From contig NZ_CP058335.1 of NCBI RefSeq assembly GCF_013391105.1, positions 1,240,001 to 1,304,000 of the forward strand: DNA of 64,000 nt, read 5' to 3'. This document shows positions 15,455-46,913 of this stretch, one piece after another. The notes below the pieces were generated by a model, which had not been told where the DNA came from, made no database searches, and was given only the letters and a program-made list of their open reading frames with translations. Every line of letters begins with the position of its first letter. The stretch's first letter is position 1. This DNA is from Natronomonas salina (lineage in GTDB: Archaea > Halobacteriota > Halobacteria > Halobacteriales > Haloarculaceae). Made by a program: the position numbers and the translations under genes.

Positions 15455-16846
15455 ATGAGCGGCTCAAGCGGGGAACAGACAGACGACTCCAAGGCCGGTG
15501 AAGAGAACCGATCAGCAGTTATAAACGGATCTGATATTTCTCTACCGGTCAAGATCGACACGCCGACTGAGGGTTACAACAAACCCGCTGTCGGCGTTGT
15601 CGCGACAAGTAAGAACGTGGACGAAGTCGCACGTGTCGTCATGCGTGCTAAGAGCGCCGATTATCCCGTCCTAATTACGACGCCAGAAGGCGGTGAGTCC
15701 GGGCTCTTCGAACTAACCAACATCGAAGGGGTCCACTACATCCCCGTCGACATGGAAACCGACGCTACCTCATCGGAGCTCAGTGCGTGTCATCGCCTCG
15801 CTGCAGCGGCTCGTGCCCTTGCTTTCTCGGGTCTCATCTTCGTCGAGAACACTGGCCAGCGCGTGGACTTCGAGCGGAGTTCAGTGGCCGACGAGGGGTA
15901 CATCAAACGGGCCATTCCGACCGACCTTGATGCTGACGTGGGGACGCTAGTCGCCATCCCAGCGTACAACGAGGAGAACACAATCGCGTCGGTGGTTGAA
16001 GATGCCCAGGGGATGGCCGACTCGGTGATCGTCGTCGACGACGGGAGTAGCGACGAGACGGCTGCTAGGGCGCGAGAAGCTGGTGCGACCGTTGTTGCCC
16101 ACGAACGGAACAGAGGCTACGGTGCAGCACTCCAGACCGCGTTCGAGACCGCGGAGCTCCACGACGTCGGCTGCCTCGTCATCATCGACGGCGACGGCCA
16201 GCACGATACAAGTGACATCCCGGTCCTCGCCGAGAAGGTGACCGAGGGGGAGGCGAACGTTGCTATCGGGAGCCGGTTTGCCGGTGAGAACCGGAGTGCC
16301 ATTCCTGCCTACAGGCGGTTCGGGATCGGCGCGATCAACGTGATGTCGAACCTTAGTATGGGTACGTTGAATCCAGCAGATTGGGTCAGCGACACCCAGA
16401 GTGGATTCCGGGCCTACGATCCCCATGCCATCGAGACGTTGGCTGACGCCAATCTCGGTGACGACATGGATGCGAGCCTAGATATTCTCTACCATATTCA
16501 CAAGGAAGACTTCCACATCGAGGAGATGCCCACTATTGTAAATTACGATGTGGAGAACGGGCACAGTCAGAATCCAGTCACGCACGGAGTTCGGTTAATC
16601 AGTACAATTCTCCGGACTGTGGAAAAGGATCATCCCATCAAATTCCTGGGTGTTCCTGCAGTCATTATGGTGCTAGTCGGTTCTGGCTTCGGATACTGGA
16701 CGATGGCGAACTACCTTACGTCACAGACATTCCCTCTGGGTTTGGCTCTCGTCTCAGTATTCCTTATCCTCCTCGGAGTCTTCTCTGGATTTACTGCGAT
16801 TATGCTGCATTCGTTGAGTACACACATGGATGGAACACATGAATAA
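15455..16846 (+). CDS. GT2 glycosyltransferase, dolichol-phosphate sugar synthase type (AglJ-like), with extra N-terminal domain
   Basis: 463 residues. Residues 1-165 are an extra domain (VGVVATSKNVDEVARVVMRA, then FVENTGQRVDFE) absent from the paralogue at 37205. The GT-A catalytic domain follows: AIPAYNEENTI, VIVVDDGSSDETAA, the DGDGQH metal site and the acceptor-side SDTQSGFRAY. Two transmembrane helices at about 395-455 anchor the C-terminus. DPM1/AglJ-like enzymes transfer a sugar from a nucleotide to dolichol phosphate, the first step of archaeal N-glycan or polysaccharide assembly. The next gene overlaps its end, which marks it as the first gene of an eight-gene operon. Confidence 0.88.
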   Translation: MSGSSGEQTDDSKAGEENRSAVINGSDISLPVKIDTPTEGYNKPAVGVVATSKNVDEVARVVMRAKSADYPVLITTPEGGESGLFELTNIEGVHYIPVDMETDATSSELSACHRLAAAARALAFSGLIFVENTGQRVDFERSSVADEGYIKRAIPTDLDADVGTLVAIPAYNEENTIASVVEDAQGMADSVIVVDDGSSDETAARAREAGATVVAHERNRGYGAALQTAFETAELHDVGCLVIIDGDGQHDTSDIPVLAEKVTEGEANVAIGSRFAGENRSAIPAYRRFGIGAINVMSNLSMGTLNPADWVSDTQSGFRAYDPHAIETLADANLGDDMDASLDILYHIHKEDFHIEEMPTIVNYDVENGHSQNPVTHGVRLISTILRTVEKDHPIKFLGVPAVIMVLVGSGFGYWTMANYLTSQTFPLGLALVSVFLILLGVFSGFTAIMLHSLSTHMDGTHE

Positions 16847-17963
16847 ATCTTCATCACATCTTGCGTTTATACTCGGGACACGACCGGAGATCATCAAGAT
16901 GGCACCGCTCATCCGGGAGTGTCAAGAGCGGGGTCAATCGTTCGTTCTCATCCACACGGGCCAGCACTACTCGGACTCGCTGGATTCCGTGTTCTTCGAG
17001 CAGCTCGAACTCCCAAAACCGGATTATCACCTTGGTGTCGGATCAGCCTCCCACGGTGAACAGACCGGCCAGATGCTCATCGCGATTGAAGAGGTGCTGC
17101 TCGATGAGGAACCCGATGTCGTCTTCGTCCAGGGTGACACCAATTCCGTGCTTGCTGGCGCTATCGCGACCAGCAAACTCGACTGCGAACTGGCGCACGT
17201 AGAAGCCGGCCTTCGGAGCTTCGACCGAGGGATGCCCGAGGAGACGAACCGGGTCCTCGCTGACCACGTCTCCGACTACCTGTTCGCACCCACAGAGCAA
17301 AGTCGCGAATATCTGCTCGACGAAGGACGACCTGAGGAGAATATCTCGGTGACCGGGAATACAATCGTCGACGCTCTATATCGGAATCGGGAACTCGCTC
17401 GCGAGAAGAGCACCGTCATCTCCGACCTCGGATTAGAAGGCGAGGAGTTCTTCCTCATGACTTCCCATCGTGCGGAGAACGTTGACGACGAGAAACGGTT
17501 TCGCGGTCTCCTTGAGGGAGTCGCGGCAGCTGCCGCGGAACATAACGTTGAGGTCGTCTATCCAATCCATCCACGGGCTGAATCCAGGATCGACGAGTTC
17601 GGACTGGAGATTCCCGACTGCATCACACTGATCGAACCGCAGGATTACCTGGACTTCCTCCAGCTCGAAGCGGAGGCAAGCCTTATCTTGACCGATTCCG
17701 GAGGCGTACAGGAGGAGGCCTGTGTGTTGCGGATTCCTTGCGTAACACTACGAGAGAATACGGAACGGTCCGAGACAGTTGATGTCGGGGCGAACACCCT
17801 CGCCGGGACGGACCCGGACTCGATAGTATCCGAATCGTCCAGTATGCTACAGGAGGACCACCACTGGGAGAATCCCTTCGGTGATGGTCAATCTGCTGAA
17901 CGGATTATCGACGAAGCCACCGCTAAAGGTGAGACACGAGACCAGATATCTCAGCATGATTGA
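16839..17963 (+). CDS. wecB: UDP-N-acetylglucosamine 2-epimerase (non-hydrolysing)
   Basis: 374 residues from ATG 16839, overlapping the previous stop (an ATG 9 bases upstream is also possible). Family motifs are all present: FILGTRPEIIKMAPL at the start, FVQGDTNSVLAG, HVEAGLRSFDRGMPEETNR, MTSHRAENVDD and LTDSGGVQEEACVL. The enzyme interconverts UDP-GlcNAc and UDP-ManNAc in the cytoplasm. With wecC three cistrons downstream the pair would make UDP-ManNAcA. A 29-residue stub of a second copy survives at 38245, again right after an AglJ-like gene. Confidence 0.95.
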   Translation: MNKSSSHLAFILGTRPEIIKMAPLIRECQERGQSFVLIHTGQHYSDSLDSVFFEQLELPKPDYHLGVGSASHGEQTGQMLIAIEEVLLDEEPDVVFVQGDTNSVLAGAIATSKLDCELAHVEAGLRSFDRGMPEETNRVLADHVSDYLFAPTEQSREYLLDEGRPEENISVTGNTIVDALYRNRELAREKSTVISDLGLEGEEFFLMTSHRAENVDDEKRFRGLLEGVAAAAAEHNVEVVYPIHPRAESRIDEFGLEIPDCITLIEPQDYLDFLQLEAEASLILTDSGGVQEEACVLRIPCVTLRENTERSETVDVGANTLAGTDPDSIVSESSSMLQEDHHWENPFGDGQSAERIIDEATAKGETRDQISQHD

Positions 17964-18002
17964 ACCGCTTTCGATATAATACTCGAATCACGACAATTAC
18001 AC

Positions 18003-18920
18003 ATGGCAGCTATCCTAGTCACAGGCGGCCTGGGCGCAGTTGGAGCACCACTTACTGAAGAGTTGGAGTCACGCGGCCACGACGTGTGGGTCGCGGACCT
18101 CCCGTGGAGCGAACGCGAGAAGTACTACAAGTGCGACGTCAGTGAATATCGACAGTTAGCGTCGATCTTTGAGGACCACTCCTTCGATTACGTCTACCAC
18201 TTGGCGGCGGAATTCGGTCGGAAGAACGGTGAAGACTTCTACGAGACGATGTGGCAGTCGAACGCTATCGGGACCAAACATATGCTTCGGTTGCAGAAGG
18301 AACACGGGTTCCGGATGATCTTCTCCTCATCCAGTGAGGTCTACGGTGACTACGACGATATAATGGACGAGGCGGTACCGTTGGAGGAAGGTCCTCGGCA
18401 GCTCAATGACTATGCAATCTCAAAGTGGGTCAACGAACAGCAAATCCTGAACGCGGCGGATCGACACGGCAACGAGACCATTCGGGTCCGCTTCTTCAAC
18501 ACGTACGGGCCCGGCGAGAAGTTCAGCGAGTACCGGAGCGTCATCGCGAAGTTCTGCTATCACGCACTGCACGACAACCCCTATCACGTCTACGAGAACC
18601 ACCACCGTTCGTTCACCTACATCGGGGATACCGTCCGAACACTGGCGAACATTGTTGAAAACTTCAAGCCAGGCGAGGTCTACAACATCGCTGGCGAAGA
18701 GTACTACAACATCAAGGAGCTCTCGGACATGATACTGGACTATCTGGACAAAAATGATGAGAAGGTCGAGTACCGAGGGAGAGAAGAGCACAACACGTTG
18801 AACAAGCGGGCGAGTGTCGAGAAGGCGAAACGCGATCTCGATCACGAAGCGACGGTCTCGCTTGAAGAGGGAATCCCAAAGACCATCGATTGGATGCGAG
18901 ACTACTACGATGTCGAGTGA
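18003..18920 (+). CDS. NAD-dependent sugar epimerase/dehydratase (SDR)
   Basis: 305 residues. The NAD site is ILVTGGLGAVGAPL. Ser of IFSSSSEVYGDYDD and Tyr-x3-Lys of DYAISKWVNEQQ are the catalytic set, and a substrate loop reads RFFNTYGPGEKF. The C-terminal part has YNIAGEEYYNIKELSDM. The substrate is a nucleotide sugar. The EFGRKNGE loop and lack of a GalE-type N-terminal LDN motif make UDP-glucose 4-epimerase less certain. Its end overlaps wecC by 11 bases, so the two are coupled. Confidence 0.85.
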   Translation: MAAILVTGGLGAVGAPLTEELESRGHDVWVADLPWSEREKYYKCDVSEYRQLASIFEDHSFDYVYHLAAEFGRKNGEDFYETMWQSNAIGTKHMLRLQKEHGFRMIFSSSSEVYGDYDDIMDEAVPLEEGPRQLNDYAISKWVNEQQILNAADRHGNETIRVRFFNTYGPGEKFSEYRSVIAKFCYHALHDNPYHVYENHHRSFTYIGDTVRTLANIVENFKPGEVYNIAGEEYYNIKELSDMILDYLDKNDEKVEYRGREEHNTLNKRASVEKAKRDLDHEATVSLEEGIPKTIDWMRDYYDVE

Positions 18921-20181
18921 CGGCGTAGAGAACGAAAGTGGTCAAGGTAGGACCATCGAGAAGATCAACGTCATCGGTACTGGCTTCATCGGCCTTCCAT
19001 TAGCGTTGCAATTGGCCTACTCTGGGAAGACCGTCGTCGGTGTCGATATCGACGAGAATCTCGTCAAGGCGATCAATGACCAGTCGCTGCATTTGGACGA
19101 ACAGGACCTCCAGCGGTTGCTTGAGAGTGAGGAGGTGGAAGAAAACCTGATTGCAAAGACCTCTCCGGAGGAAGGGGATGCATTCGTAATCTCAGTTCCG
19201 ACGCCACTGACACACCCTCAGAAGAGCCCTGACCTGAGCGCCGTGGAAGCGTCCATAGACTCGATTATTCCGCACCTGTCAGAGGGCGACATCGTCAATG
19301 TGGAGTCAACGATTCCGCCTCTCACCTGTGATGATTTCATCGTACCCAAACTTTCAGAGGCCGGTTTTGATCCGGGAGTGGACGTACACCTCGCACATTC
19401 CCCTGAACGTATCCTTCCGGGGAACGTGTTCAAGGAAATCGTACACAACGATCGGGTCATCGGGGGTATCACACCTGAGAGCGCCAGAGAGGCGACGAAA
19501 ATCTACGCGCCATTCCTGAAAGGAGAGGTCCATCATACGGACATGCTGTCCGCCGAGCTCTGTAAGCTGATGGAGAATACATACCGGGACGTGAATATTG
19601 CCCTGGCCAACGAGTTCGCCCTCATTGGAGACGAGTTGGACAAGGACATGACGGACGTTATCGACCTAGCGAACAAGCATCCACGGGTCGACATCCTACG
19701 TCCTGGGATCGGCGTCGGGGGCCACTGCCTCCCGATCGACCCCTGGTTCCTCAATGAAGTCGATCCGGAGCACACGAACCTCATCACGACCGCCCGGCGC
19801 ATCAACGACATGATGCCGCAGGTCGTCACCCGGAAAATCCGACACGCGCTTCGGGACTACGACGATCCGAAGCTGCTCGTCCTCGGAGCTGCGTACAAGC
19901 CCGACACGCAAGATGCGAGAGAAAGTCCGGCCCGGGAGATCGTTGAGGAGCTCCGCCAGGATGGCTACGACATTGCCCAATACGATCGGTTCATCGACGG
20001 GATGGGCTACGACGACCTCGGAGTACTGATTGACGAAATTGAACCCGTCCTAATTCTCCAGCTCGTAGACCATACCGAGACGACGAAGGAACTGGAACGT
20101 CTCAAGAATGAACTCGTAGCTGGGGAAATCGACGTGTTGCCCATAGCGAGAGGTAATCCACTGTTGCCTACCGATGAGTGA
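18910..20181 (+). CDS. wecC: UDP-N-acetyl-D-mannosamine dehydrogenase
   Basis: 423 residues from ATG 18910, inside the end of the previous gene. The Rossmann motif is VIGTGFIGLPLALQLA. The catalytic cysteine is in GVGGHCLPIDPWF, and the lysine/asparagine helix reads AELCKLMENTYRDVNIALANE. The C-terminal NAD-binding half has LGAAYKPDTQDARESPA. The HCLPIDPWF form is typical of ManNAc dehydrogenases rather than UDP-glucose dehydrogenase. It oxidises UDP-ManNAc to UDP-ManNAcA with two NAD, consuming the product of WecB from the same operon. Confidence 0.93.
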   Translation: MSSDGVENESGQGRTIEKINVIGTGFIGLPLALQLAYSGKTVVGVDIDENLVKAINDQSLHLDEQDLQRLLESEEVEENLIAKTSPEEGDAFVISVPTPLTHPQKSPDLSAVEASIDSIIPHLSEGDIVNVESTIPPLTCDDFIVPKLSEAGFDPGVDVHLAHSPERILPGNVFKEIVHNDRVIGGITPESAREATKIYAPFLKGEVHHTDMLSAELCKLMENTYRDVNIALANEFALIGDELDKDMTDVIDLANKHPRVDILRPGIGVGGHCLPIDPWFLNEVDPEHTNLITTARRINDMMPQVVTRKIRHALRDYDDPKLLVLGAAYKPDTQDARESPAREIVEELRQDGYDIAQYDRFIDGMGYDDLGVLIDEIEPVLILQLVDHTETTKELERLKNELVAGEIDVLPIARGNPLLPTDE

Positions 20182-21424
20182 CAAATTAGACGTTCTAATC
20201 GTCACGCAGTTCTTCCCACCTGAGTCGATGGGGGGTGCGCACCGCTGGGAGAAACTTGCTATGAATCTAGATGAAGACATTGAACCACACATCTTGACTA
20301 CTCAGCCCACGTACCCGTTTGGAGAGTTCGAGAAAAGGTGGCGCATAACTGAACAGGAGAGAGTGAACGACATTTCAGTGACGCGGTTATTTACCTACCA
20401 GCCAACGGACGATACTGTGCTTGGACGAGTGCTGAATTACGGTGTGTTTTCAGTGCTCAGTTCTCTATACGTCTTGGCGACGTTCTGGCGATACGACCAA
20501 ATCGTTACTATGTCTACTCCCCATACAACCTTTCTCCCGGGTTTAGTTGGGAAAATTACTGGTCTAAGCTGGGTTATAGATATTTTTGATTTGTGGATCG
20601 ATAATGCTGCAGATTTAGGATATGTTGAGAAAGGATCGCTCCCCTATTGGTTGGTTCGTTTGCTCGAAGAGATTTCATTTAAATACTCTGACGAAGTATT
20701 CGTGGTGACCGAAACGATGGCTGAACACTACGAACGACGGTATCCAGAACGGGAATTTGATATACACACCGTGCCTTTTGGTATGGATACTGACTCTTTT
20801 TCACCAGATATCGATTCCATGGGTACAATCGACATCATTTATACGGGAAACCTCGGTACATGCCAGGCATTCACTCCATTTTTCGAGGCGTTTGCTAAGC
20901 TTGAGGAGGATGCTGTTTTGACTATAATCGGGGATGGTGAAAGACGCAAGGAACTGGAATCACTCGTAGAAACCCTCGATATTACGGACCGGGTATCGTT
21001 TGAAGGATATGTTCCTCGAGGAAATATTCCACATCTGTTGGCGGGGGCAAAAATCAGCCTTGTTCCACTGAAGACGGAATACGAACTCGACTATGCACGT
21101 CCTACGAAATTATTAGAGACAATGGCGGTTGGTACTCCATACGTGGCAAGTGACGTTAAGGAAATGAAAAAGCTGAGTGAAAAGTACTCCACTGGATTTG
21201 CGGTCGAAAACGATTCCGAGGAAATCAGTGAAGCGATGTCTACTTTGTTATCGGACTCCTCTCTCCGTATGAGGATGGCAAAAAACGGTCGGGAGGTCAT
21301 TGAAAGCCAGCACGATTGGTCTGAAATCGGTGATATGGTTTCAGCAATCCTCAACAGATTGTATCAAGAGGAATCCTCTGATGAGTCAACATCAAGACTC
21401 ACAGAAGACCGGACGCACCAATGA
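20174..21424 (+). CDS. GT4-family glycosyltransferase (WbuB-like)
   Basis: 416 residues, GT-B fold. The N-terminal domain begins VLIVTQFFPPESMGGAHRW. A DIFDLWIDNAADLG segment matches the DLWP region of WbuB-type fucosaminyl or GlcNAc transferases. The C-terminal nucleotide-sugar site has IYTGNLGTCQAFTP, IIGDGERRKEL and the EX7E-like region RPTKLLETMAVGTPYVASDV. It probably adds a sugar to a lipid-linked intermediate on the inner membrane face. The start overlaps wecC by eight bases. Confidence 0.88.
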   Translation: MSDKLDVLIVTQFFPPESMGGAHRWEKLAMNLDEDIEPHILTTQPTYPFGEFEKRWRITEQERVNDISVTRLFTYQPTDDTVLGRVLNYGVFSVLSSLYVLATFWRYDQIVTMSTPHTTFLPGLVGKITGLSWVIDIFDLWIDNAADLGYVEKGSLPYWLVRLLEEISFKYSDEVFVVTETMAEHYERRYPEREFDIHTVPFGMDTDSFSPDIDSMGTIDIIYTGNLGTCQAFTPFFEAFAKLEEDAVLTIIGDGERRKELESLVETLDITDRVSFEGYVPRGNIPHLLAGAKISLVPLKTEYELDYARPTKLLETMAVGTPYVASDVKEMKKLSEKYSTGFAVENDSEEISEAMSTLLSDSSLRMRMAKNGREVIESQHDWSEIGDMVSAILNRLYQEESSDESTSRLTEDRTHQ

Positions 21425-21642
21425 GTTCTATGAAATCAAAAAGCGCTTGTCTCACACTTGATCTAGAACACGACTTCACTATTCCAGGAACTCCCACTCC
21501 AAATCCCACTTTCGAGTACATCAAAGGATATATTGATGCTCATCACCGGCAGGAGAAGCTCGATCGAAAAGCTGAACAAGCGGTTTGGGAATCAGTTGGT
21601 GTCGAAGCTCCCTTGGAAACCAACGGCGCATACGCAAAATGA
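21421..21642 (+). CDS. 73-residue protein resembling the N-terminus of the following deacetylase
   Basis: A short gene with ATGA overlaps on both sides (start inside the GT4 stop, end overlapping the deacetylase start). It begins with KSACLTLDLEHDFTIPGT. This mirrors KRVYLTLDFECDYGTALS, the first strand and metal-site aspartate of the polysaccharide deacetylase at 21639. The remaining 45 residues do not continue the deacetylase fold. It may be a truncated duplicate that kept its reading frame, or a small accessory protein. Function unknown. Confidence 0.55.
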   Translation: MSSMKSKSACLTLDLEHDFTIPGTPTPNPTFEYIKGYIDAHHRQEKLDRKAEQAVWESVGVEAPLETNGAYAK

Positions 21643-22481
21643 GAGACCGGACAGAAGAGAAGTGTCAATTGGATTGGCCCGACGAAAAGCGGGTATATTT
21701 GACTCTAGATTTCGAATGTGACTACGGGACGGCGTTGTCGACGAACCACTTCAACACCGTCGAACATTCCGACCAACTTGCAGAACTGCTGGAAGAGCGA
21801 GGGACACCGATGTCCTGTTTTCTGCAGACGGAAATCCTCGAGACTTGTCCTAAAACCATCACACCATTTCGTGACGCCACGGTCCCAGTCGACTTCCACG
21901 CCCATTCACATACGCACCCAAACAGAGAAGATGCGGACGTTGAAACTGAAGTCGAAGAGAGTGTCCATCGTATCCGGGAGAATTTTGAGACGGACCCCCT
22001 CGGCTTTCGTTTCCCAGATGGAGCGGTCGGGTCTCAAGACTACGAGATTCTAGCTGACCACGATGTCGCGTTTAGCTCGAGTCTATTCCCCTCATGGCGG
22101 CCAGGCCGGTTCAACAACTTTCGCGGGTCACGGAACCCGCAAAGCATTTCGAATAGAGATATCATTGAAATACCCTTCACAGTGTACTCTGATTTCCTGC
22201 GGATTCCAGTGGCCCTGTCTTATCTGAAGTTGTTTGGGGCTGCTTTCGAGCGACTCGTTAGGTCTAACCCCCCGGATATAATCATCTTCGACTTTCATAT
22301 GCATGATCTAGTCGTTCCAAAGACATTCGAGCAGTTACCGCTTCCGTATCGTGCTGTCTATTCCCGCCGAAAACACGATGGGTTTGAATTACTTGATCGG
22401 TTCATATGTGATTTACAGGACAAGGGGTATGAATTCGGATTAATTGCCGATCTGTACAGAGAGGTACAGAAGGATGCGTAG
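21639..22481 (+). CDS. Polysaccharide deacetylase family protein
   Basis: 280 residues from ATG 21639. A NodB-like TIM-barrel: metal motif 1 at YLTLDFECDYG, motif 2 at DFHAHSHTHPN (HxxxH), then RENFETDPLGFRFPDGAVG as motif 3 (arginine and acidic residue) and IIIFDFHMHDLV as motif 5. These metalloenzymes remove N-acetyl groups from GlcNAc-type sugars or polysaccharide. ATG overlaps the upstream stop. Its last codons overlap the formyltransferase start, suggesting that the two enzymes work on the same amino sugar. Confidence 0.85.
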   Translation: MRDRTEEKCQLDWPDEKRVYLTLDFECDYGTALSTNHFNTVEHSDQLAELLEERGTPMSCFLQTEILETCPKTITPFRDATVPVDFHAHSHTHPNREDADVETEVEESVHRIRENFETDPLGFRFPDGAVGSQDYEILADHDVAFSSSLFPSWRPGRFNNFRGSRNPQSISNRDIIEIPFTVYSDFLRIPVALSYLKLFGAAFERLVRSNPPDIIIFDFHMHDLVVPKTFEQLPLPYRAVYSRRKHDGFELLDRFICDLQDKGYEFGLIADLYREVQKDA

Positions 22482-23289
22482 TTCCGATTCGACGGGCAGT
22501 GAAACCCTTGAAGTTCTCGTCATCACCATAGACGAACACTACTACATCCCGAAATTCCTAGGGGATATCGTTGAGGCGGAGGCAATCAACGTGGTGGGAA
22601 TCACGACGATGCCCCCATCGCTTGGGACACAAAACCTGGTTATGTTCGCATTCGATCTGTTTCGACGATTTGGCCCGAAGGTGTTTGCTCAACACAGCTT
22701 GTTCTATGCGAAGTTCATGCTCTTGGATCTCTTCGGTCGATTTACAGGGTGGGGGCCAGCTTATTCGCCAAAGACTCTCGCCCATCGGTACGATATCGAC
22801 TACCGTCATACGACTGATGTCAACAGCGATCTGTATCGAAAATACGCCAAGGCGAAAAATCCTGACGTCATAGTCTCGGTCGCTGCAACCCAAAAGTTTG
22901 GCTCGGATTTGCTTGGAGTTCCGGAGCTGGGTGGGATAAATGTCCACTCGTCATTGTTGCCGGAGTATCGCGGCGTATCCCCCAGCTTTTGGGCTTTGCT
23001 CCATGGGAATGAGAAAACGGGTATCACCGTTCACTATATGGACGAGGACATTGATACAGGAGACGTGATCATTCAGGAACCGCTGACAATCCAAGAGGAG
23101 GATACCCTCCACTCATTGAATGAACGAGTTGCAGAACGTGGATCCGGAGTTCTTCGACGAGCATTGGATGATATCCGGGCAGGGACAATCGATGCTGAAC
23201 CTATAAATCCGGATGCGGGGACCTACTATTCTCTACCTAGTCGAGAGGATGTCCGCGAATTTCTTCATCAGGGTAACGAATTCTACTGA
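22474..23289 (+). CDS. Formyltransferase-family protein (methionyl-tRNA formyltransferase-like sugar N-formyltransferase)
   Basis: 271 residues from ATG 22474. The formyl-transfer domain carries LGGINVHSSLLPEYRGVSP, with the conserved Asn-x-His of N10-formyltetrahydrofolate enzymes, and HYMDEDIDTGDVIIQE with the conserved Asp. ArnA, WbtJ and VioF-like sugar formyltransferases have the same core and lack a tRNA-binding C-terminus, as here. It would formylate a free amino group on a sugar. No sugar aminotransferase is in the window, so the amine may come from the coupled deacetylase. It is the last gene of the operon. Confidence 0.85.
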   Translation: MRSSDSTGSETLEVLVITIDEHYYIPKFLGDIVEAEAINVVGITTMPPSLGTQNLVMFAFDLFRRFGPKVFAQHSLFYAKFMLLDLFGRFTGWGPAYSPKTLAHRYDIDYRHTTDVNSDLYRKYAKAKNPDVIVSVAATQKFGSDLLGVPELGGINVHSSLLPEYRGVSPSFWALLHGNEKTGITVHYMDEDIDTGDVIIQEPLTIQEEDTLHSLNERVAERGSGVLRRALDDIRAGTIDAEPINPDAGTYYSLPSREDVREFLHQGNEFY

Positions 23290-26184: not shown

Positions 26185-27768
26185 ATGTTTGGGATTAGTA
26201 AAAAGAGATTTAGTACGCAAGGGATTCTAAAAATGGGTTTAATTTTATCCTATCTTTCCTGTGCTATTATGGTGGCCCAGCTTCGAGGGCTTCTTTCCGG
26301 TTCCATCATGATTCCTACCCTCGGATTTGTATTCTATCCTGTACTCCGATTTAAACAAATGCGGTCAACTATTATATATGATTCTTTATATCTCATTGCT
26401 GTGTTTGCAAGTCTTGGAGGGGTACTAGCCTATCCTTCCGTGATGCCAGTTGGATTTGGCGACGTACATACCCATCAGGCCATAATTGAACAGCAGTACT
26501 CAGATGGACATATTTTCCCTGAAAACCCGGCACCATCATTTAATTTCATAGGCTATTATGTTTTTACCATTTTACTTATAAAATTACTTAACTCGTCCCT
26601 CGCTATGGTCGCAAAATTTTCTCCAGTTATTCTACTTATGCTTACTGTATTACTTTTTTATTGGACTATATCTAGAAAGTACCTTTCTCCAAGAGTGGGG
26701 GTTCTTGGAGCACTACTATTTGGACTCCAATACGGAGTGTATCGGTTCTCAATTGAGTACCGCACCCTTAATCTGGCACTCCCACTTGCTGTACTAATAT
26801 TCGCCCTGGTGTTTTCGTATTCAAACCCACAGCACAATCTAAACTATATTTTTAATATGGTGTATGTACGCCAGAGGATTTTGGGGATAATTCTAATTGC
26901 TGCATTCACTACGGTTCACTTTACATCGGTGTTCCTAATGGCGATCATGATATTTTTGATAGCAGCTGTCTCTGCGTCTTATAAAGACAAGTCCAACGCC
27001 CTCTTCTATTCTATCTTATTAGTATTAATACTCTTTGTATATTTAGCTTATATAGGGGGTGGTTTCGATCGAACTATTTCCACGATTTTCACAGGTTCAA
27101 TCGTACCACTCTTTTTTGCGGAGGATGCTGTCGCCAGCAACAATCCTGATCGTGCTATTGGTGCCGGGACAGTGCTGGTAACCTGGTTGGTTCGAACAGG
27201 ATTTCTCCTAGCATCAGTAGCCTTGGGATGTAAGTGGCTTTTCGGTGAACGTGACCCGGATACTGCAAAATTATTTGTTTGTACGAGTGTATTCGGTTTC
27301 CTTGCACTCCTTCCGATGCTCGGAGTCGATATTATTCTGAATCCAGGTAGGTTATTGACATTCTTCGCGATACCTTACGCCTTAATATACGCATCGGGTG
27401 TTGAAACTGTGTATAAGGATACAGGATCTTGGAAGAGAGCGGTGAGCTCAGCTGGTATCCTCTTGCTCTGTTGTCTAGTGGTTTTAAGTGTGCTATCACC
27501 GCTCCCTAGTGTCTTAATTGGGGACACTAGCTATATCCAAGATTCTTACGGTGAAGGGGAAGAAAACTACCAGTTGAATGAACAAAATGAGGATGCAAAG
27601 ATTTTTGCTCTAAATAGACTTCAAGGTAATAGCACCATTGGGTCTAATGTTCCACGCATATACTACACGTTGTGGATAGGTACAAATAACCCAAGATATC
27701 TCATTACCATGAAGCAATGCGAAGATAATATATATTCAAATGGGAAAATAAATATATGTGTTAAATAA
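26185..27768 (+). CDS. Multispanning membrane protein, GT-C-like
   Basis: 527 residues with about ten to twelve transmembrane helices and a hydrophilic C-terminal region of about 90 residues. The first large loop carries GFGDVHTHQAIIEQQYSDG, reminiscent of the acidic-plus-histidine loop of GT-C glycosyltransferases. A second protein of the same layout at 40334 has YGLDALFHNRVVGEIAAQG at the matching place. A later loop has NPDRAIGAGTVLVTW. It may transfer lipid-linked sugars outside the membrane, but it could also be a polymerase. AT-rich. Confidence 0.6.
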   Translation: MFGISKKRFSTQGILKMGLILSYLSCAIMVAQLRGLLSGSIMIPTLGFVFYPVLRFKQMRSTIIYDSLYLIAVFASLGGVLAYPSVMPVGFGDVHTHQAIIEQQYSDGHIFPENPAPSFNFIGYYVFTILLIKLLNSSLAMVAKFSPVILLMLTVLLFYWTISRKYLSPRVGVLGALLFGLQYGVYRFSIEYRTLNLALPLAVLIFALVFSYSNPQHNLNYIFNMVYVRQRILGIILIAAFTTVHFTSVFLMAIMIFLIAAVSASYKDKSNALFYSILLVLILFVYLAYIGGGFDRTISTIFTGSIVPLFFAEDAVASNNPDRAIGAGTVLVTWLVRTGFLLASVALGCKWLFGERDPDTAKLFVCTSVFGFLALLPMLGVDIILNPGRLLTFFAIPYALIYASGVETVYKDTGSWKRAVSSAGILLLCCLVVLSVLSPLPSVLIGDTSYIQDSYGEGEENYQLNEQNEDAKIFALNRLQGNSTIGSNVPRIYYTLWIGTNNPRYLITMKQCEDNIYSNGKINICVK

Positions 27769-28046
27769 AAAATCTTAAATATATATGGTTTAGATAAATA
27801 AATTACTGCCTGATAGGTCCACTCAGGTCAATCTTGATACAATGCGAAGAGTGGTATGACGTGGAGTGATTATAGTTCGTCAAGATATTTGAAAATACGA
27901 TATTTATCTGGCGATTATCTTTGATATTCGGCATTGGATATGAAGCTACCAAAACAATTATTTATTGAACTGAACTGCTGTTACTGGACTATGTAGTTAC
28001 ATTACTTTCCCATCTTTTATATCTATCCCTGGTCTATTCCCCGATA
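27769..28046. other. AT-rich intergenic region
   Basis: No gene visible. The promoter of the pyruvyl transferase operon is at its end. Confidence 0.5.
28016..28022 (+). promoter_or_regulatory. TATA box for the pyruvyl transferase/MurB/flippase operon
   Basis: TTTATAT is centred about 27 bases before ATG 28047, predicting a leaderless transcript. Confidence 0.55.
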
Positions 28047-29249
28047 ATGGTTAAGATTGGGGTTCTCACTTTCCATAACAATGAAAATCGAGGCGCAATT
28101 CTCCAAGCATACTGCCTATGTAATCTTCTCGGAGACATTTTTGATGCGAAAGCAGAAGTAATTGAATATAGGACCGAAGCAAAGGAGCGAGCAAGAAAAA
28201 TTAACCTCATACTCTCAAAGAGACCACTGAGATTACCCCATAAATATAGAGATCGTAGAATTGTAGAAAATTTTATTGAATCAAACATCCCGAATAGCCA
28301 GCGAAGTTTAACTACTAATGATCACGATGCTGCGGTATCATGGCTTCGTGACCAAGAATACGACATTTTAGTGACCGGGAGTGATGAAATCTGGAAAATA
28401 CGTAATCGATCGCGAAATAGTATTGGTATGGAGTTAAAAAATAGCCTGGTTAAGAGAATTTCACCGACACGACCCTTCCCAAATTTGTACTTCTTAGATC
28501 CATCACTTTCCGCTACCAAAGTAGCATACGCCGCGTCAGGGAACACAACTAATCTAACAGAGTTATCGGATAATCAAATCAATACACTCAGACGACATCT
28601 CCGGACCTATGACGCCATCAGTGTTCGGGACCGCCACACGAAACAGTTAGTTGAGGAGCTAGGATTTGGAGATGTCTCCCAGGTTCCTGATCCGACTCTT
28701 ATGATCGAAATCCCTCAAAAAGATGCTGCCACCATACTTCATCAGCTGGGTATAGATACAAAACAGCAAATTCTTGGGTTCCATGCTCCTGATACCCCAC
28801 TACTACAAGAAATATGTGATATATATCGCGACAAAGGTTACCAGATTGTTGCTCTCAGATCTTCAAGTTTTGCGGATGTTGAACTTGAAGGGGTGGTTGA
28901 TCCGTTTGAATACTATGGGATGTATGGTCTCTTTGATATGGTGGTCACTAGTAGTCTCCATTCAACAATTTTTAGTATTAAACACGGTACACCATTCGTG
29001 ACTATTAACGAGAGTGAAATATATCGAACTCTTGAAAGTAAAACGTTCTCGCTACTGAACGACTTTTCTTTACTTGAGAGACATATCCACGCAGTTGACG
29101 GGGACATTTCGAAGTTCTATGAGAAACAGAACTATTTAGAGGAGAAGCCTGACGTCGAACATATTTCTAATCGGATTACTAAACTGAAGGAGAAGGGGTA
29201 TGAATTCCTTGAGGAGGTGAAAAATCTTCATGAAACAAACAACCGATGA
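28047..29249 (+). CDS. Polysaccharide pyruvyl transferase family protein
   Basis: 400 residues. The start KIGVLTFHNNENRGAILQAY is the family signature (NxGAxLQAYAL). YDILVTGSDEIWKIRN and YAASGNTTNLTELS follow. The C-terminal GT-B-like half has YDAISVRDRHTKQLVEELG, VPDPTLM and VVTSSLHSTIFSIKHGTPFV. Members such as CsaB and WcaK transfer a pyruvyl group from phosphoenolpyruvate to a sugar, usually as a ketal. Its last 20 bases overlap the MurB-like gene, so the two are made together. Confidence 0.88.
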   Translation: MVKIGVLTFHNNENRGAILQAYCLCNLLGDIFDAKAEVIEYRTEAKERARKINLILSKRPLRLPHKYRDRRIVENFIESNIPNSQRSLTTNDHDAAVSWLRDQEYDILVTGSDEIWKIRNRSRNSIGMELKNSLVKRISPTRPFPNLYFLDPSLSATKVAYAASGNTTNLTELSDNQINTLRRHLRTYDAISVRDRHTKQLVEELGFGDVSQVPDPTLMIEIPQKDAATILHQLGIDTKQQILGFHAPDTPLLQEICDIYRDKGYQIVALRSSSFADVELEGVVDPFEYYGMYGLFDMVVTSSLHSTIFSIKHGTPFVTINESEIYRTLESKTFSLLNDFSLLERHIHAVDGDISKFYEKQNYLEEKPDVEHISNRITKLKEKGYEFLEEVKNLHETNNR

Positions 29250-30075
29250 CCTTTCAAACTACACTTGGCTGAAAATTGGTGGTCCAGCTAAGGTTGCAAT
29301 TCCAGAGAGCAAAGAAGAGTTCGTGGGATTGCTTCAAGAGTGTCAAGAGACGAACACGCCGTTTCGAATTCTGGGTAATGGTTCTAATATTCTCGTTAGT
29401 GACGAAGGGATTGATGAGCTAGTCATTAAAAGCACTAATGCCTGTACTGAACTTAAATTTGAGGGGAATTGTGTTAATGTCGGTTCATCCGTAATGGTGC
29501 CACAATTTATCTCTGCATGCATCAACAACGATTTAGGAGGATATGAGTACCTTTATTCGGTCCCCGGAACAGTCGGGGGGGCAATATACATGAACGCCGG
29601 ACGTGGCAAGGGCCATAACCAAACAATCTCGGATCACTTATCCTCAGTCGAATTTTATTCGGAGGGTGGGGTTAGGGAGGTGCCTGTCGAGGACCTTGAA
29701 TTCGAGCATAGGTACTCGATATTTCACGAACATGACAATTGGGTTATCCTCTCAGCTACATTCCAATTACCAAGCCAACCCCGTCATGAAGGAAAGAAGT
29801 TAGCGAGGGAGCGGATGGAGAAGGTAAGTCAACGAGAGCGGACGAAGCCAAATGCAGGGTCAGTATTTAAATCTGGTGTCAGATTCCCGTTTCATAAGAT
29901 TCCTCCCAGAGGGCTCTCTGTCGGTGATGCCAGGTTCGTCTCTGGGAACAGGATCTGCCATAATGGCGATGCGACTTTCGACGATGTAAAGCAACTGATT
30001 TCTAGAGCCAAGTGGGTTAACCGATTAATTCCACCATTTAAGGAACCTGAAGTCGAATGGGAGATTTGGGAGTAG
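29230..30075 (+). CDS. murB: MurB-like FAD-dependent UDP-N-acetylenolpyruvoylglucosamine reductase homologue
   Basis: 281 residues. It opens TWLKIGGPAKVAIPESKEE, then the FAD-binding motif ILGNGSNILVSDEG (48-60) and VPGTVGGAIYMNAG (111-124), all MurB hallmarks. The catalytic set is conserved: Arg161 in HRYSIF (E. coli MurB Arg159), Ser211 in NAGSVFKSG (Ser229) and Glu in the C-terminal EPEVEW (Glu325). The short length fits type II MurB. In bacteria MurB reduces the enolpyruvyl ether of UDP-GlcNAc to UDP-MurNAc for peptidoglycan, which haloarchaea lack. Translational coupling to a pyruvyl transferase suggests a lactyl-ether sugar or a related reduction in surface glycan. No MurA homologue is in the window. 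A transferred gene with a new substrate is possible. Confidence 0.88.
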   Translation: MKQTTDDLSNYTWLKIGGPAKVAIPESKEEFVGLLQECQETNTPFRILGNGSNILVSDEGIDELVIKSTNACTELKFEGNCVNVGSSVMVPQFISACINNDLGGYEYLYSVPGTVGGAIYMNAGRGKGHNQTISDHLSSVEFYSEGGVREVPVEDLEFEHRYSIFHEHDNWVILSATFQLPSQPRHEGKKLARERMEKVSQRERTKPNAGSVFKSGVRFPFHKIPPRGLSVGDARFVSGNRICHNGDATFDDVKQLISRAKWVNRLIPPFKEPEVEWEIWE

Positions 30076-30094
30076 TGTCCACTCTACTCCAAAA

Positions 30095-31612
30095 ATGAGT
30101 AGCCGAAAAGTTGTAGGGTTTATCTCCGTACTGGGAGGAAAATTCGGTTCACTTCTCCTGGGAGTATTTATTAACCCCCTTATAGTTCGTATCTTGGGTA
30201 GCGAAAACTACGGTGATTACGCATTCGTTCTCTCGTTATTTGCGATTTCTACAACCTTTGTCCATGCTGGAATGTCCGCAGGAATACGAAAGTACGTTGC
30301 TGAGGACCGATCCGAAAGTTATTGGGAGGAACAGGTTTTCGCTTTTTACAGTCGTCTTGGCGTTGCCCTGGCATTCCTCGGCGCGACCGTTCTGGTTGTA
30401 TTCGGCCTTATCGGACCCGTGGAACGATTGTTCGGAGACAATTTTTCGCTATATTTTGTTCTCCTAGCTTTAATGGTTGTGACAAACCAGCTCTTCTATA
30501 TCTCTCGGTTCACCTTGATAGGATTACACTTGGAGAGAAAATCTGAACCACTCCAGGTACTTAAACAGGCTCTTTTTGGTACTATCGGTATTTCTCTGGC
30601 ATACGCAGGATTCAACGTAGCCGGTGTACTTCTCGGAACTGCGATTGCATCCCTTATCTGTGCGCTTGCAGCAGCTTGGATATTACATAAGTATATCAAT
30701 CTGAAAGTTGTGTTTCACTCAGCCCCCAACCATTTTCCTAAATCCGACCTTCTCCGTTTCAACCTCTATAATACCATCTTTATCTTACTGACAATTTCTC
30801 TCTACAATATTGATTTGCTCCTTCTTCAGCCGATATCCGGCAGCCATCAAACGGGGCTCTACAAATCTGCTCTTATTATCTCCCAGTTCATCTGGATGGT
30901 CCCTCAAGCGGTTCAGATTGTTTTCATTCACTCTTCTTCTGAGATGTGGTCGAAGGAAGAGTTTGACGAGATCACGGATATGGTGAGTCAAGCTACGCGA
31001 TACACGCTTCTCTTCACGTTGCTAATAATCATCGGGATTGCAGCTCTAGCATCTGACTTCATCTACTACTACTTTGGTAGTGAATTTGTTGATGCAGTCA
31101 CCCCACTCTTACTCCTGCTACCAGGCGTCCTGGGTTTTGCTATTGCTCGACCCATCTACGCAGTTGGACAAGGAAAAGGTGAACTCCGAGTGCTTATACT
31201 GGCTACAGGTACTGCGGCGATAATAAACCTTGTACTGAATCTCTTGTTAATTCCTCGCTATGGGATGAATGGAGCGGCTGTTGCGACGAGTATTGGATAC
31301 GGCTCAATGCTCGTCTTCCATGGCTTTGCAGCGAGGATAATAGGATACAATCCTTTTGCAGATCTTCGTTCTCTGAAGATTTTCTTCACTGCATTAGTGA
31401 CTGCCATCGTTGTGTTTGGACTCTCAGCTACAATCCAAAATAGTATATTATCACTCTTAATCGTCCCAATAATTGGGTTCTTTATTTATACAATTATTGC
31501 GGTTAGAGTTGGAGCAATCGACACAATTGAGCTTCTTCAAGTAACCGATCAACTTCCCGATCCAATAGCACGCTACTCTACAAAATTAATTCAGAAAATT
31601 GAACCGAAGTGA
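30095..31612 (+). CDS. Polysaccharide flippase (Wzx/MOP superfamily)
   Basis: 505 residues with about 14 hydrophobic helices. The N-terminus (FINPLIVRILGSENYGDYAF) and the GLFKSALIISQ-like segment TGLYKSALIISQFIW are typical of Wzx/RfbX exporters and of the haloarchaeal AglR-type proteins. The C-terminal LNLLLIPRYGMNGAAVATSI motif is shared with the paralogue at 42318. It would flip lipid-linked glycan to the outer face. It is 19 bases downstream of the MurB-like gene in the same operon. Confidence 0.9.
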   Translation: MSSRKVVGFISVLGGKFGSLLLGVFINPLIVRILGSENYGDYAFVLSLFAISTTFVHAGMSAGIRKYVAEDRSESYWEEQVFAFYSRLGVALAFLGATVLVVFGLIGPVERLFGDNFSLYFVLLALMVVTNQLFYISRFTLIGLHLERKSEPLQVLKQALFGTIGISLAYAGFNVAGVLLGTAIASLICALAAAWILHKYINLKVVFHSAPNHFPKSDLLRFNLYNTIFILLTISLYNIDLLLLQPISGSHQTGLYKSALIISQFIWMVPQAVQIVFIHSSSEMWSKEEFDEITDMVSQATRYTLLFTLLIIIGIAALASDFIYYYFGSEFVDAVTPLLLLLPGVLGFAIARPIYAVGQGKGELRVLILATGTAAIINLVLNLLLIPRYGMNGAAVATSIGYGSMLVFHGFAARIIGYNPFADLRSLKIFFTALVTAIVVFGLSATIQNSILSLLIVPIIGFFIYTIIAVRVGAIDTIELLQVTDQLPDPIARYSTKLIQKIEPK

Positions 31613-35054: not shown

Positions 35055-36125
35055 ATGAAGAACCAGTTATGCTGGAAAGACTTGAACGCACAATCCAGTC
35101 AGAAAGTCATCGAAGAACTTTCTGACGCTTTCCAGTCGTGGTTCGATTTGCGACAGAATGACCCAGAGGCGAATCCATCCGGCTACCGCAAACACGGTGA
35201 CACCCGACCGCGTTCCACGGTGACGTTCAAAGCAGACGGGCTCAAACACGACCGCGAGAACAACCGCGTCCGGCTCAGCAAAGGCTCGAACCTTAAAGAA
35301 TCGCGGCCGGACTTCATCCTCTGTGATTACCAAACCCACCCGGACGTTGACCTCACCGAGGTCAACAAGGTGCAGAACGTTCGTGCGGTTTGGAACGGTG
35401 ACGAGTGGGAACTGCACTTTGTCTGCAAAGTCGAACTCGAAACCAACGACTCAGCAGGCGGCGAAGTGGCAGGCATCGATCTCGGTATCAAGAACCTCGC
35501 CACGGTCGCGTTCCCCGACCAATGCGTTCGGTACCCCGGCAACTCGCTCAAGCAGGACAAGCACTACTTCACCCAAGCCGAGTACGACAAGGAAGGCGAG
35601 AACAGCCCCTCTGAGAAGTCGATGTGGGCACGTCGAAAACACGCAGACCGTGTAACCAACTTCTACCACGTTCTCACGGACACCGTCATCACCGAGTGTG
35701 TCGAACGCGGTGTTAGCACGCTCGCGGTGAGTTGGCCTGAAGACGTGCGAGAATCTGATTGGGGCAAGACCGACAACAAGAAGTTGCACTCGTGGGCGTT
35801 CGACCGTCTATATCAGTACCTCGAATACAAAGGAGAGACCCACGGTGTTGAGGTGCTGAAAGAGAACGAGTGGAACACCTCGAAGACGTGTTCGGGGTGT
35901 GGTGACGACACGAAGTCGAACCGTGTCGGACGTGGCCTGTACGTCTGCTCGTCGTGCGAGTTGGTCGGGAACGCGGATTGTAACGGGGCGGAGAATATGA
36001 GGCAGAAGATAACTCCGAGTCCTCACGGCGAGGATAGGAGTAACGGCTGTGTGGCACAGCCATCGGTACACCGGTTCGACCGCGAGAGCGGGATGTTTCG
36101 CACGAGAGAACAGGTCGTGTCGTAG
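35055..36125 (+). CDS. tnpB: TnpB-type RNA-guided endonuclease, N-terminally truncated
   Basis: 356 residues, about 50-60 short at the N-terminus. It starts at KNQLCWKDLNAQSSQKVIEE, which is internal in complete relatives, and the 70 bases upstream do not restore the missing part. The RuvC parts are GIDLGIKNLATVAF, STLAVSWPEDVRE and NADCNGAENM. The zinc ribbon is CSGCGDD...CSSCEL. The wedge domain that binds RNA is partly lost, so activity is doubtful. The downstream HGEDRSNGCVAQP tail corresponds to the conserved right-end structure. Confidence 0.8.
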   Translation: MKNQLCWKDLNAQSSQKVIEELSDAFQSWFDLRQNDPEANPSGYRKHGDTRPRSTVTFKADGLKHDRENNRVRLSKGSNLKESRPDFILCDYQTHPDVDLTEVNKVQNVRAVWNGDEWELHFVCKVELETNDSAGGEVAGIDLGIKNLATVAFPDQCVRYPGNSLKQDKHYFTQAEYDKEGENSPSEKSMWARRKHADRVTNFYHVLTDTVITECVERGVSTLAVSWPEDVRESDWGKTDNKKLHSWAFDRLYQYLEYKGETHGVEVLKENEWNTSKTCSGCGDDTKSNRVGRGLYVCSSCELVGNADCNGAENMRQKITPSPHGEDRSNGCVAQPSVHRFDRESGMFRTREQVVS

Positions 36126-44000: not shown

Positions 44001-45230
44001 CTACCCCACCCTGCGTGGCCTGACGGCCTCGCTGAGGACGGGGCTTCCTGTTTCTACGACGCGCTTTGCAGGAACCGAATCGGTCCCCACAGGGAGTGCA
44101 GTCTCCGCAGGCACTGAATCGGGGTGAACCACCCCTACTTGATCGAGACCGCGTGAAAGGATGTTGTACGCCGCATTGAGATCGCGGTCCGCTTCGAACC
44201 CACACGAGGGACACGAGTGTTCGCGCACCCACAGTGGCTTGTCGGTCGAAACGCCGCACTCGGAACACTCTTTGGTCGTTCCGCGTGGATCGACGGCGAC
44301 GAAGTGCGTCCCTTCTCGCTCACACTTGTATTCGAGCAGCCGCAGGAACGTCCCCCAGGCCGCTCCGGCGCGATTGCGGCTGTTCGACGGCAGTTCCATC
44401 AACCCCTTCACGTCAAGGTCTTCGACCGCTACGAGATCGTATTCCCGCGCGTAGTAGTTCGAGAGCTTGTGCAGGAAATCCCGCCGTTTTCGCGTCAGGT
44501 CGGCGTGGCGTCGGGCGACGACGCGCTGTTGCTTGCGGTAGTTGTTCGACCCGTGGTCCTTCCGTGAGAGGTTGCGTTGGGCGCGCTCCAACCGTTCGCG
44601 TTCGTCCGAGAGGTCGGGACCGTCGACGGCGGTTCCGTCGCTGTCGTGAGCATACGTCAGGATTCCTACGTCGATCCCGACGCATTTCTCGGGGTTCTCG
44701 GGCTTCGTGGGCGCGTCGTTTTCGGTTTCGATTCCGAGGATGGCGAACCACTCGCCGGTCGGCTCCTGCTTCACGACAACTTCCTTGATCGATGCGTCGT
44801 CGGGGACCTCGCGGTGGTAGACCAGTGGGATATCGCCGATCTTGGAAAGAGAGAGTACAGGCCGACCGCTCGTGTTGTTGAGCTCGAAGCCGGTCTGACT
44901 GTACGTGATCGAACGGTATTCCTGCGGGGATTTCCACTTGAGTTCGCCGACGCGGTAGCCGTTGGCCTTCCGGCCTTTGAGCGTCGAGAGGTTGTCGTAC
45001 AAGCGTTGTACGACTTTTTGAAGGACCTTCGAGTGAACGTCCTGCAGGTCTGGCCACTCGCCTTTGAGGTCCGGAAGGATAGACTGTTCTGAGTAGGCGG
45101 AGGTGTCGTCTACTCGGTTGAGTCGGTGCAGGAAGTGGTTGTAGACCTGTCGGCAGGTATCGACAGTCCACGCTAACCGCTCGTGGAGTTCGTCGGTCGG
45201 TTTGAGCCGATACCTGTAGTTGTAGCGCAT
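44001..45230 (-). CDS. tnpB: TnpB-type RNA-guided endonuclease
   Basis: 409 residues, complete. The N-terminal RNA-binding region starts MRYNYRYRLKPTDELHERLA. RuvC residues are Asp187 (VGIDVG), Glu270 (VAVEDLDVK) and Asp350 (DRDLNAAYN). The zinc ribbon is CSECG...CPSCG. It is only distantly related to the TnpB at 10353. The DUF2080 gene lies 10 bases upstream on the same strand. The stop codon is part of the right-end sequence, so guide RNA and coding sequence overlap. Confidence 0.93.
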   Translation of the reverse strand: MRYNYRYRLKPTDELHERLAWTVDTCRQVYNHFLHRLNRVDDTSAYSEQSILPDLKGEWPDLQDVHSKVLQKVVQRLYDNLSTLKGRKANGYRVGELKWKSPQEYRSITYSQTGFELNNTSGRPVLSLSKIGDIPLVYHREVPDDASIKEVVVKQEPTGEWFAILGIETENDAPTKPENPEKCVGIDVGILTYAHDSDGTAVDGPDLSDERERLERAQRNLSRKDHGSNNYRKQQRVVARRHADLTRKRRDFLHKLSNYYAREYDLVAVEDLDVKGLMELPSNSRNRAGAAWGTFLRLLEYKCEREGTHFVAVDPRGTTKECSECGVSTDKPLWVREHSCPSCGFEADRDLNAAYNILSRGLDQVGVVHPDSVPAETALPVGTDSVPAKRVVETGSPVLSEAVRPRRVG

Positions 45231-45953: not shown

Positions 45954-46913
45954 ATGACCGGTTTGATGTCGAGAGTATCTCACAGCCGAATTCTGGAGAG
46001 GTTGGTGAAGATACGGACGACCATACGCAAGGTTGGGCTCTCTGGGCTTTGTAAGGAGGTATGGCTTACACTTGTCATTCGAGGACCGCTCTATCCATTG
46101 TTTAGTTTCGTATTCGATCGGGTAACACACGAGAAGATCGCTCAAGCACCCTGTGTCGGATATTGGCCACGATTGGAACACCCGCAGACATTCAATGAAA
46201 AGATCTCGAACAGGAAATTCTTCTCCGATTCGGAACTATACACCACTGTCTCTGACAAACATGCTGTCAGAGGATTTGTGAGGGGCAAAGACTGCGAAGA
46301 GACCCTAAATAGCCTCTATTTTGTTACTGATGATCCTCGTGAGATACCATTCGAATCACTGCCCCAGGAATTCGTCGTGAAGGCTACGCACGGCTCTGGC
46401 CAGGTCCATATAGTGGATGAGAAGAGAAAGGAAGATTACGACGAGATCCGGTCCAAGTGTGAAGAGTGGTTATCGCAGGATTTCGGAACCAGAAATGCGG
46501 AATACTGGTATACGAACATTGAGCCGAAAATCATCGTCGAAGAACGAATGCAAGTAGAGGGTCGGGAAGTCCCGCTCGATTACAAAGTATTTGTTTTCGA
46601 TGGGAATGCCGAGTATATCCAAGTGAATATCGACCGATTCTCCGACTTATCAGAACGGTTCTACGACACCGACTGGTCCCCGATGGAGTTTACCCACGCA
46701 TACGAGAAGGGGCCGCTGGTAGATGAGCCAGATAATCTGGATGAATTACTCGAAGTCGCAGAGAGAATCGGTGACGAATTCGACTTCGCTCGCGTCGATC
46801 TCTACGATACCGCTGATGGGATCAGATTTGGCGAGATAACATTAGCCCCAGGGTCTGGATATCTCTGGTTTCGGCCCAAGGAATGGGATTTTACACTGGG
46901 TTCACTCTGGTGA
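45954..46913 (+). CDS. ATP-grasp protein of the TupA family
   Basis: 319 residues (an ATG four codons later is also possible). Signature segments are FNEKISNRKFFSDSELYTTV, SDKHAVRGFV, the ATP-binding EFVVKATHGSGQVHIVDEKR, EPKIIVEERM, YKVFVFDGNAEYIQVNIDR and a C-terminal DFARVDLYDTADGIRFGEIT with the metal-binding Glu. TupA-type ATP-grasp proteins form an amide between an acidic sugar or amino acid and a partner, as in teichuronopeptide synthesis. A ManNAcA-containing glycan would be a fitting substrate. It lies directly behind an IS remnant. Confidence 0.85.
   Translation: MTGLMSRVSHSRILERLVKIRTTIRKVGLSGLCKEVWLTLVIRGPLYPLFSFVFDRVTHEKIAQAPCVGYWPRLEHPQTFNEKISNRKFFSDSELYTTVSDKHAVRGFVRGKDCEETLNSLYFVTDDPREIPFESLPQEFVVKATHGSGQVHIVDEKRKEDYDEIRSKCEEWLSQDFGTRNAEYWYTNIEPKIIVEERMQVEGREVPLDYKVFVFDGNAEYIQVNIDRFSDLSERFYDTDWSPMEFTHAYEKGPLVDEPDNLDELLEVAERIGDEFDFARVDLYDTADGIRFGEITLAPGSGYLWFRPKEWDFTLGSLW

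Follow-up and report, generated by a model that had tools for sequence, protein, structure and literature searches.

Lactyl ethers are known from bacterial surface glycans and are present in polysaccharides of Shigella and Butyrivibrio. In the Salinivibrio O-antigen, 4-O-lactyl-mannose is found where similar repeats have 4,6-pyruvyl-mannose (PMC8466920), a contrast compatible with a single pathway that has or lacks a reductase. A literature search, with most subscription journals outside it, found no assignment of genes to lactyl ethers and no report of MurB or lactyl groups in haloarchaea, and comparison with the E. coli O-antigens gave no lactyl gene assignment. The three polysaccharide pyruvyl transferases (PvTs) of family PF04230 characterised up to a 2019 review all form (4,6-)ketals, and none forms an enolpyruvyl ether (PMC6801904). 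CsaB, a ketal PvT, pyruvylates a lipid-linked and not a nucleotide-linked sugar, and CsaB alone exchanges deuterium into C3 of PEP (PMC6030368). Activation of PEP at C3, as carried out by MurA, is thus found already in a PF04230 enzyme.

The window, that is, the whole stretch of 64,000 nucleotides analysed here (Natronomonas salina, NZ_CP058335.1, positions 1,240,001 to 1,304,000), contains a MurB-like gene between a PvT gene and a flippase gene. Haloarchaea have no peptidoglycan. A sequence-only reading had reported these open reading frames, a 20-base overlap, and a pyruvyl transferase followed by a flippase, and all were found on the same strand at the window positions listed here.

28047 to 29249, + strand: PF04230 polysaccharide pyruvyl transferase (PvT), GSDxxW subtype (400 aa; PF04230 E 3.4e-28)
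29230 to 30075, + strand: MurB paralogue, candidate FAD-dependent enolpyruvyl reductase (281 aa; MurB models below cut-off)
29230 to 29249, + strand: overlap of the PvT 3' end and the start of the MurB paralogue (20 bases, read from the sequence)
30095 to 31612, + strand: flippase of the polysaccharide-synthesis (Wzx) family (505 aa; PF01943/PF13440; Polysacc_synt E 9e-14)
26185 to 27768, + strand: 11-TM protein in the same low-GC stretch (11 hydrophobic segments, GC 0.40)
29710 to 29712, + strand: Arg161 codon of the MurB paralogue (Arg in 29/30 paralogues)
29860 to 29862, + strand: Ser211 codon of the MurB paralogue, proposed proton donor (Ser in 20/30 and Thr in 10/30 paralogues)
30055 to 30057, + strand: Glu276 codon of the MurB paralogue, catalytic Glu (30/30 paralogues)

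The ATG of the MurB paralogue lies inside the final 20 bases of the PvT gene, and comparable overlaps of 4-17 bases were found in the corresponding gene pairs of relatives. The genes within 26185-31612 have a GC content of 0.40-0.46, in comparison with 0.63-0.64 in the window flanks, and the cassette is surrounded by genes for glycosyltransferases, a UDP-GlcNAc 2-epimerase, a nucleotide-sugar dehydrogenase, epimerases, a deacetylase and a formyltransferase. The low GC and the glycan-type neighbours identify the region as an acquired surface-glycan locus. The product of 26185-27768, which had no family match in a Pfam search, may be a polymerase or ligase and lies outside the conserved cassette. 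Elsewhere in the window, consecutive genes for a UDP-GlcNAc 2-epimerase, an NDP-sugar epimerase, a UDP-ManNAc-dehydrogenase-like protein, a deacetylase and a formyltransferase (15455-23289) suggest an N-acyl, possibly formyl, uronic sugar. The glycan island also contains two TnpB-type genes (35055-36125 and 44001-45230) and a TupA-like ATP-grasp protein (45954-46913), which may ligate an amino acid to the glycan. We propose, with moderate confidence, that the PvT and then the MurB paralogue act as a two-step module that makes a lactyl ether on a lipid-linked sugar of the surface glycan.

The 29230-30075 product matched the MurB models NF010480 (E 4e-50) and TIGR00179 (E 6e-39), and among solved MurBs it matched 4pyt (E 1e-27). 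However, it missed all MurB equivalog cut-offs (170 versus 259 bits for NF010480, 134 versus 144.5 bits for TIGR00179), a Pfam search gave no match to MurB_C (PF02873), and the sole Pfam match was the generic FAD_binding_4. The protein is not MurB itself; it is a MurB paralogue, of a kind that scores as MurB-like or bears the name 'FAD-binding protein' in public records. Its AF2 model (pLDDT 91) has the three-domain fold of MurB, and the first 18 Foldseek matches were all MurB over the full length, with TM scores (by query) of 0.80-0.88. The next fold family was DprE1, with a TM score of about 0.5. This placing of DprE1 and the generic Pfam match would agree with an FAD-dependent sugar oxidase or epimerase of the DprE1 or VAO type, which is nevertheless improbable in view of the full-length MurB fold (TM 0.88 versus about 0.5), the conservation of the MurB Arg, Ser/Thr and Glu across the clade, and a partner that belongs to a PEP-using transferase family.

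To compare residues, 30 paralogues were aligned with 18 MurBs (17 housekeeping and one from genome G034, described below). The sequence-only reading had credited the protein with every MurB hallmark. This holds for the FAD motifs (GNGSN, PGTVGG and MNAG) and for Arg161 and Ser211, which it had correctly picked as catalytic positions (Arg in 29 of the 30 paralogues; Ser in 20 and Thr in the other 10), but not for MurB_C or the equivalog cut-offs. The Glu of the C-terminal EPEV, also offered as a hallmark, is not conserved in relatives; the conserved Glu, present in all 30 paralogues, is Glu276 in VEWEIW. Residues invariant in the substrate domain of true MurBs, for example Arg214, Pro219, Gly248 and His260 in reference L103, have been lost from the paralogues, which carry a signature of their own (SVP, MNAGRG, Arg195 and Asn240). 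Catalytic residues kept while substrate-domain residues are lost are what would be expected of MurB chemistry on a different substrate, and a MurB-type chemistry of the paralogue is well supported. The Thr found for Ser at the acid position in one third of the paralogues counts against the lactyl-ether module.

The 28047-29249 product passed the PF04230 gathering score (99.8 versus 25.3 bits) and missed the cut-off of the CsaB equivalog TIGR03609 (27.8 versus 213 bits). Its AF2 model (pLDDT 90.7) showed a GT-B-like two-domain fold, and a search of PDB sequences with the PvT profile gave spurious Cdc24 matches only. In a PF04230 tree that compared the module PvTs with E. coli WcaK as the ketal enzyme and with other haloarchaeal PvTs, the module PvTs formed a subclade (SH-aLRT 99) apart from the rest, with the signatures T8, Q20, GSDxxW and P216. 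Arg194, Asp215 and His305 are invariant in all 32 module PvTs and, by motif and by alignment with WcaK only, are the counterparts of R217, D240 and H339 in the modelled PEP site of Pvg1p. The Arg of the RLH motif, the counterpart of Pvg1p R337, is replaced in 28 of the 32 (Ser303 in the window protein) and kept in four, and it is retained in WcaK and in 34 of 36 other haloarchaeal PvTs. This Arg is a PEP contact in a model of the ketal enzyme Pvg1p (PMC6801904), a contact that may or may not define ketal chemistry. PvTs of the subclade were also found without a MurB neighbour, on Ruminococcus albus pRUMAL01 and in genome G195, where only a MurB remnant is present, which counts against the lactyl-ether module.

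The sequence-only reading had noted that no MurA lies nearby and that this must be explained. No PF00275 gene was found within the module, and the absence of MurA extends to the whole genome, whose single gene of the EPSP-synthase family is AroA-type, as in every haloarchaeon tested. The haloarchaeal cassette genomes likewise have one gene of this family each and no MurA. Going beyond the earlier reading, we suggest that the PvT stands in for MurA; a PvT that makes an enolpyruvyl ether would explain the missing enzyme.

A MurA-type gene was found in one genome among the 391 haloarchaea, G034 of the Natrinema pellirubrum genus group, in which adjacent MurA-like and MurB genes lie in a glycan locus (G034:C38; L016:3846-6003). 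The MurA-like product scored above the cut-off of NF006873 (369 bits) and below that of TIGR01072. The adjacent MurB scores above the MurB cut-offs, contains MurB_C and groups with housekeeping MurBs instead of the paralogue clade, and G034 may make UDP-MurNAc itself. A 'muramic-acid-like' product in the strict sense of UDP-MurNAc, as had been offered for the window, was not supported, since MurA is absent and the substrate-domain residues of MurB are gone. If AroA or an enzyme not seen here took the place of MurA, the product could still be true UDP-MurNAc. This reading has the MurB fold, the catalytic residues and the G034 pair in its favour, but it is highly improbable: the G034 MurB is a different protein by its scores, its MurB_C domain and its clade, the window protein misses every cut-off and has none of the conserved substrate-domain residues, and a separate housekeeping MurB is kept in 20 of 22 bacterial carriers.

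A survey of 391 haloarchaeal genomes for the gene pair, of the kind that the sequence-only reading had called for, showed that it is rare but conserved. MurB matches were found in eight genomes, namely six with the paralogue, G195 with the remnant, and G034 as a different case. The trio of PvT, MurB paralogue and flippase occurs in six further haloarchaeal genomes from several families at 46-67% identity, with one MurB remnant and one frameshift among them, and the flippase orthologues in six other haloarchaeal loci are 59-63% identical. The trio is kept while the neighbouring genes of the glycan loci differ between genomes; in G060 its order and strand are rearranged, and the three genes are still together. 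In one of these genomes it is plasmid-borne, on Natrinema pellirubrum pNATPE01, where the pair (NATPE_RS21585 and NATPE_RS21580) is annotated 'polysaccharide pyruvyl transferase' and 'FAD-binding protein'. PF04230 is present in 68 of the 391 genomes, but PvTs of the P0002 type (E <= 1e-25) were found only in the six paralogue genomes, in G195 and, as a broken fragment, in G261. None of 40 other haloarchaeal PF04230 loci examined had a MurB neighbour, and only the P0002 clade adjoins MurB.

In G195, PvT and flippase are both intact, and between them only a MurB remnant of 48 residues is left (L017 about 9654-9797). Among the six paralogue carriers, G272 (Halostagnicola) has a C-terminus frameshifted in a tract of eight G, so that the catalytic Glu is no longer in frame (L014:10230-10407); this may reflect phase-variable switching, gene decay or an error in sequencing. 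These two relatives, the patchy distribution and the low GC (0.41-0.46 versus 0.63-0.64 in the flanks) would suit a fragment of a foreign glycan island that was acquired recently, is decaying and has no current function here. We consider this very unlikely, as the three genes of the window are intact, and the conservation of catalytic positions across 46-67% identity needs selection.

GTDB genomes were also scanned with the haloarchaeal profile, and 28 paralogue loci were recovered, two from haloarchaea and the others from Bacillota, Bacteroidota, Planctomycetota, Campylobacterota and Peregrinibacteriota. A same-strand PvT lay within 5 kb of the paralogue in 26 of the 28 loci, mostly adjacent or overlapping, and the other two loci were cut by contig ends. 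In contrast, none of 20 housekeeping murB loci in the same bacterial genomes had a PvT neighbour (Fisher p 1e-11), and 20 of the 22 bacterial carrier genomes tested had one or more MurBs in addition to the paralogue. In a tree with bacterial MurBs, which the sequence-only reading had also suggested, the paralogues from haloarchaea, Bacillota, Bacteroidota, Planctomycetota and others separated as a single clade (support 100/99), within which the five haloarchaeal paralogues included were nested as a clade of their own. The module is present in both Archaea and Bacteria. What had been read as a haloarchaeal system is present in haloarchaea without being confined to them, and is a cross-domain module common to many bacteria. 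Adjacent genes annotated 'polysaccharide pyruvyl transferase' and 'FAD-binding protein' were found on Cetobacterium and Novosphingobium plasmids. In Butyrivibrio, a match of paralogue strength was present in only 2 of 61 genomes, which weakens the idea of crediting the lactyl sugars of that genus to the module.

On plasmid pAES7 of Paracoccus aestuarii, PF04230 and MurB are fused in one protein of 845 aa. The MurB domain of the fusion grouped with housekeeping MurBs in the tree, which suggests that it was recruited separately; an AU test did not reject a single clade of this domain and the paralogues (p 0.14), and convergence is not claimed. The data showed that the PvT and the MurB paralogue are physically and evolutionarily coupled. 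An ordinary ketal-forming PvT, with the MurB paralogue acting on another group of the same glycan precursor, would accord with the 4,6-ketals formed by the three characterised PF04230 enzymes (PMC6801904) and with the fact that PF04230 and flavoenzymes are each common in glycan islands. It is nevertheless unlikely, because consecutive steps are favoured by the fusion, the overlapping frames and the near-exclusive pairing across phyla, a ketal offers MurB chemistry no double bond, and the haloarchaeal cassette genomes have no MurA as a second enolpyruvyl source.

The idea of a lactyl-type ether or an enolpyruvyl reduction, already raised by the sequence-only reading, was strengthened by synteny, fusion, co-occurrence and the catalytic residues; the chemistry that we infer for the lactyl-ether module is as follows. 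The PF04230 enzyme would join PEP to a hydroxyl of a lipid-linked oligosaccharide sugar, and probably not of UDP-GlcNAc, and would release an enolpyruvyl ether by losing a proton instead of closing a ketal with a second hydroxyl, thus doing the job of MurA on an unrelated fold. Using FAD and NAD(P)H, the MurB paralogue would then move a hydride to C3 of the enolpyruvyl group, and C2 would be protonated by Ser211 with the assistance of Arg161 and Glu276, giving a 1-carboxyethyl (lactyl) ether; this reduction is predicted from the conserved chemistry. The adjoining flippase would export the decorated repeat for the surface glycan. The ketals formed by every PF04230 enzyme characterised to 2019 count against this scheme. 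Mass spectrometry of the surface glycan for a +72 Da lactyl or a +70 Da pyruvyl mark had been put forward as a check; +70 Da is shared by an enolpyruvyl ether and a pyruvate ketal, which mass cannot separate. No glycan structure was found for any carrier strain.

PF04230 proteins were also found with other flavin enzymes. PF04230 is fused to a nitroreductase on a Paracoccus alcaliphilus plasmid (L123:4587-7136), PvT and nitroreductase genes lie in one cluster on an E. coli plasmid, and FrhB-like proteins lie near PvTs in Pseudobutyrivibrio. A nitroreductase was present within 5 kb in 4 of 40 other haloarchaeal PvT loci (L185, L189, L197 and L203). In the tree, these nitroreductase-linked haloarchaeal PvTs group on the side of WcaK; links to flavin reductases thus extend beyond the module subclade. 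In Fuchsiella alkaliacetigena (L050:4082-6750), the MurB paralogue is truncated, and it and a PvT have a nitroreductase gene beside them, an arrangement that looks like the exchange of one reductase for another. The finding of unrelated flavin reductases coupled to PF04230 suggests recurrent reduction of the pyruvyl-derived group. A wider reading, which we hold tentatively as possible rather than probable, is that a PF04230 subclade is a second class of enolpyruvyl transferase, unrelated to MurA, whose members are paired in Bacteria and Archaea with MurB paralogues, nitroreductases and possibly FrhB proteins, flavin reductases of two or more unrelated folds, to make lactyl-ether sugars on lipid-linked precursors of surface glycans. 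If the proposed lactyl-ether module is correct, the chemistry of MurA evolved twice, the second time on a fold unrelated to it, lactyl-ether sugars of polysaccharides other than peptidoglycan would have a biosynthetic route, and the presence of a MurB-fold enzyme in peptidoglycan-free archaea would be explained. Lactyl decorations would also become predictable from genome sequence, and the MurB-like or 'FAD-binding protein' annotation would be corrected.

In comparison with known systems, the predicted product belongs to the same class as the lactyl-ether polysaccharides, such as that with 4-O-lactyl-mannose in Salinivibrio, whose biosynthetic genes were not found in the literature searched. 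The module PvTs resemble the ketal PvTs (CsaB, WcfO, WcaK and Pvg1p) in family, in the Arg, Asp and His of the PEP site and in their glycan-locus context, but they form a subclade separate from WcaK, mostly lack the RLH Arg and are coupled to a flavin reductase. The paralogue resembles type IIa MurB (for example 1HSK and 4PYT) in its whole fold, FAD motifs and catalytic Arg, Ser and Glu, but it falls below the equivalog cut-offs in a clade of its own, without MurB_C and with a remodelled substrate domain; it adjoins a PvT and, in haloarchaeal carriers, never occurs with MurA. The proposed logic, enolpyruvyl transfer followed by flavin reduction to a lactyl ether, is that by which MurA and MurB make UDP-MurNAc, but the transferase of the module is a PF04230 protein and not of the EPSP-synthase fold, and its acceptor is probably lipid-linked rather than UDP-GlcNAc.
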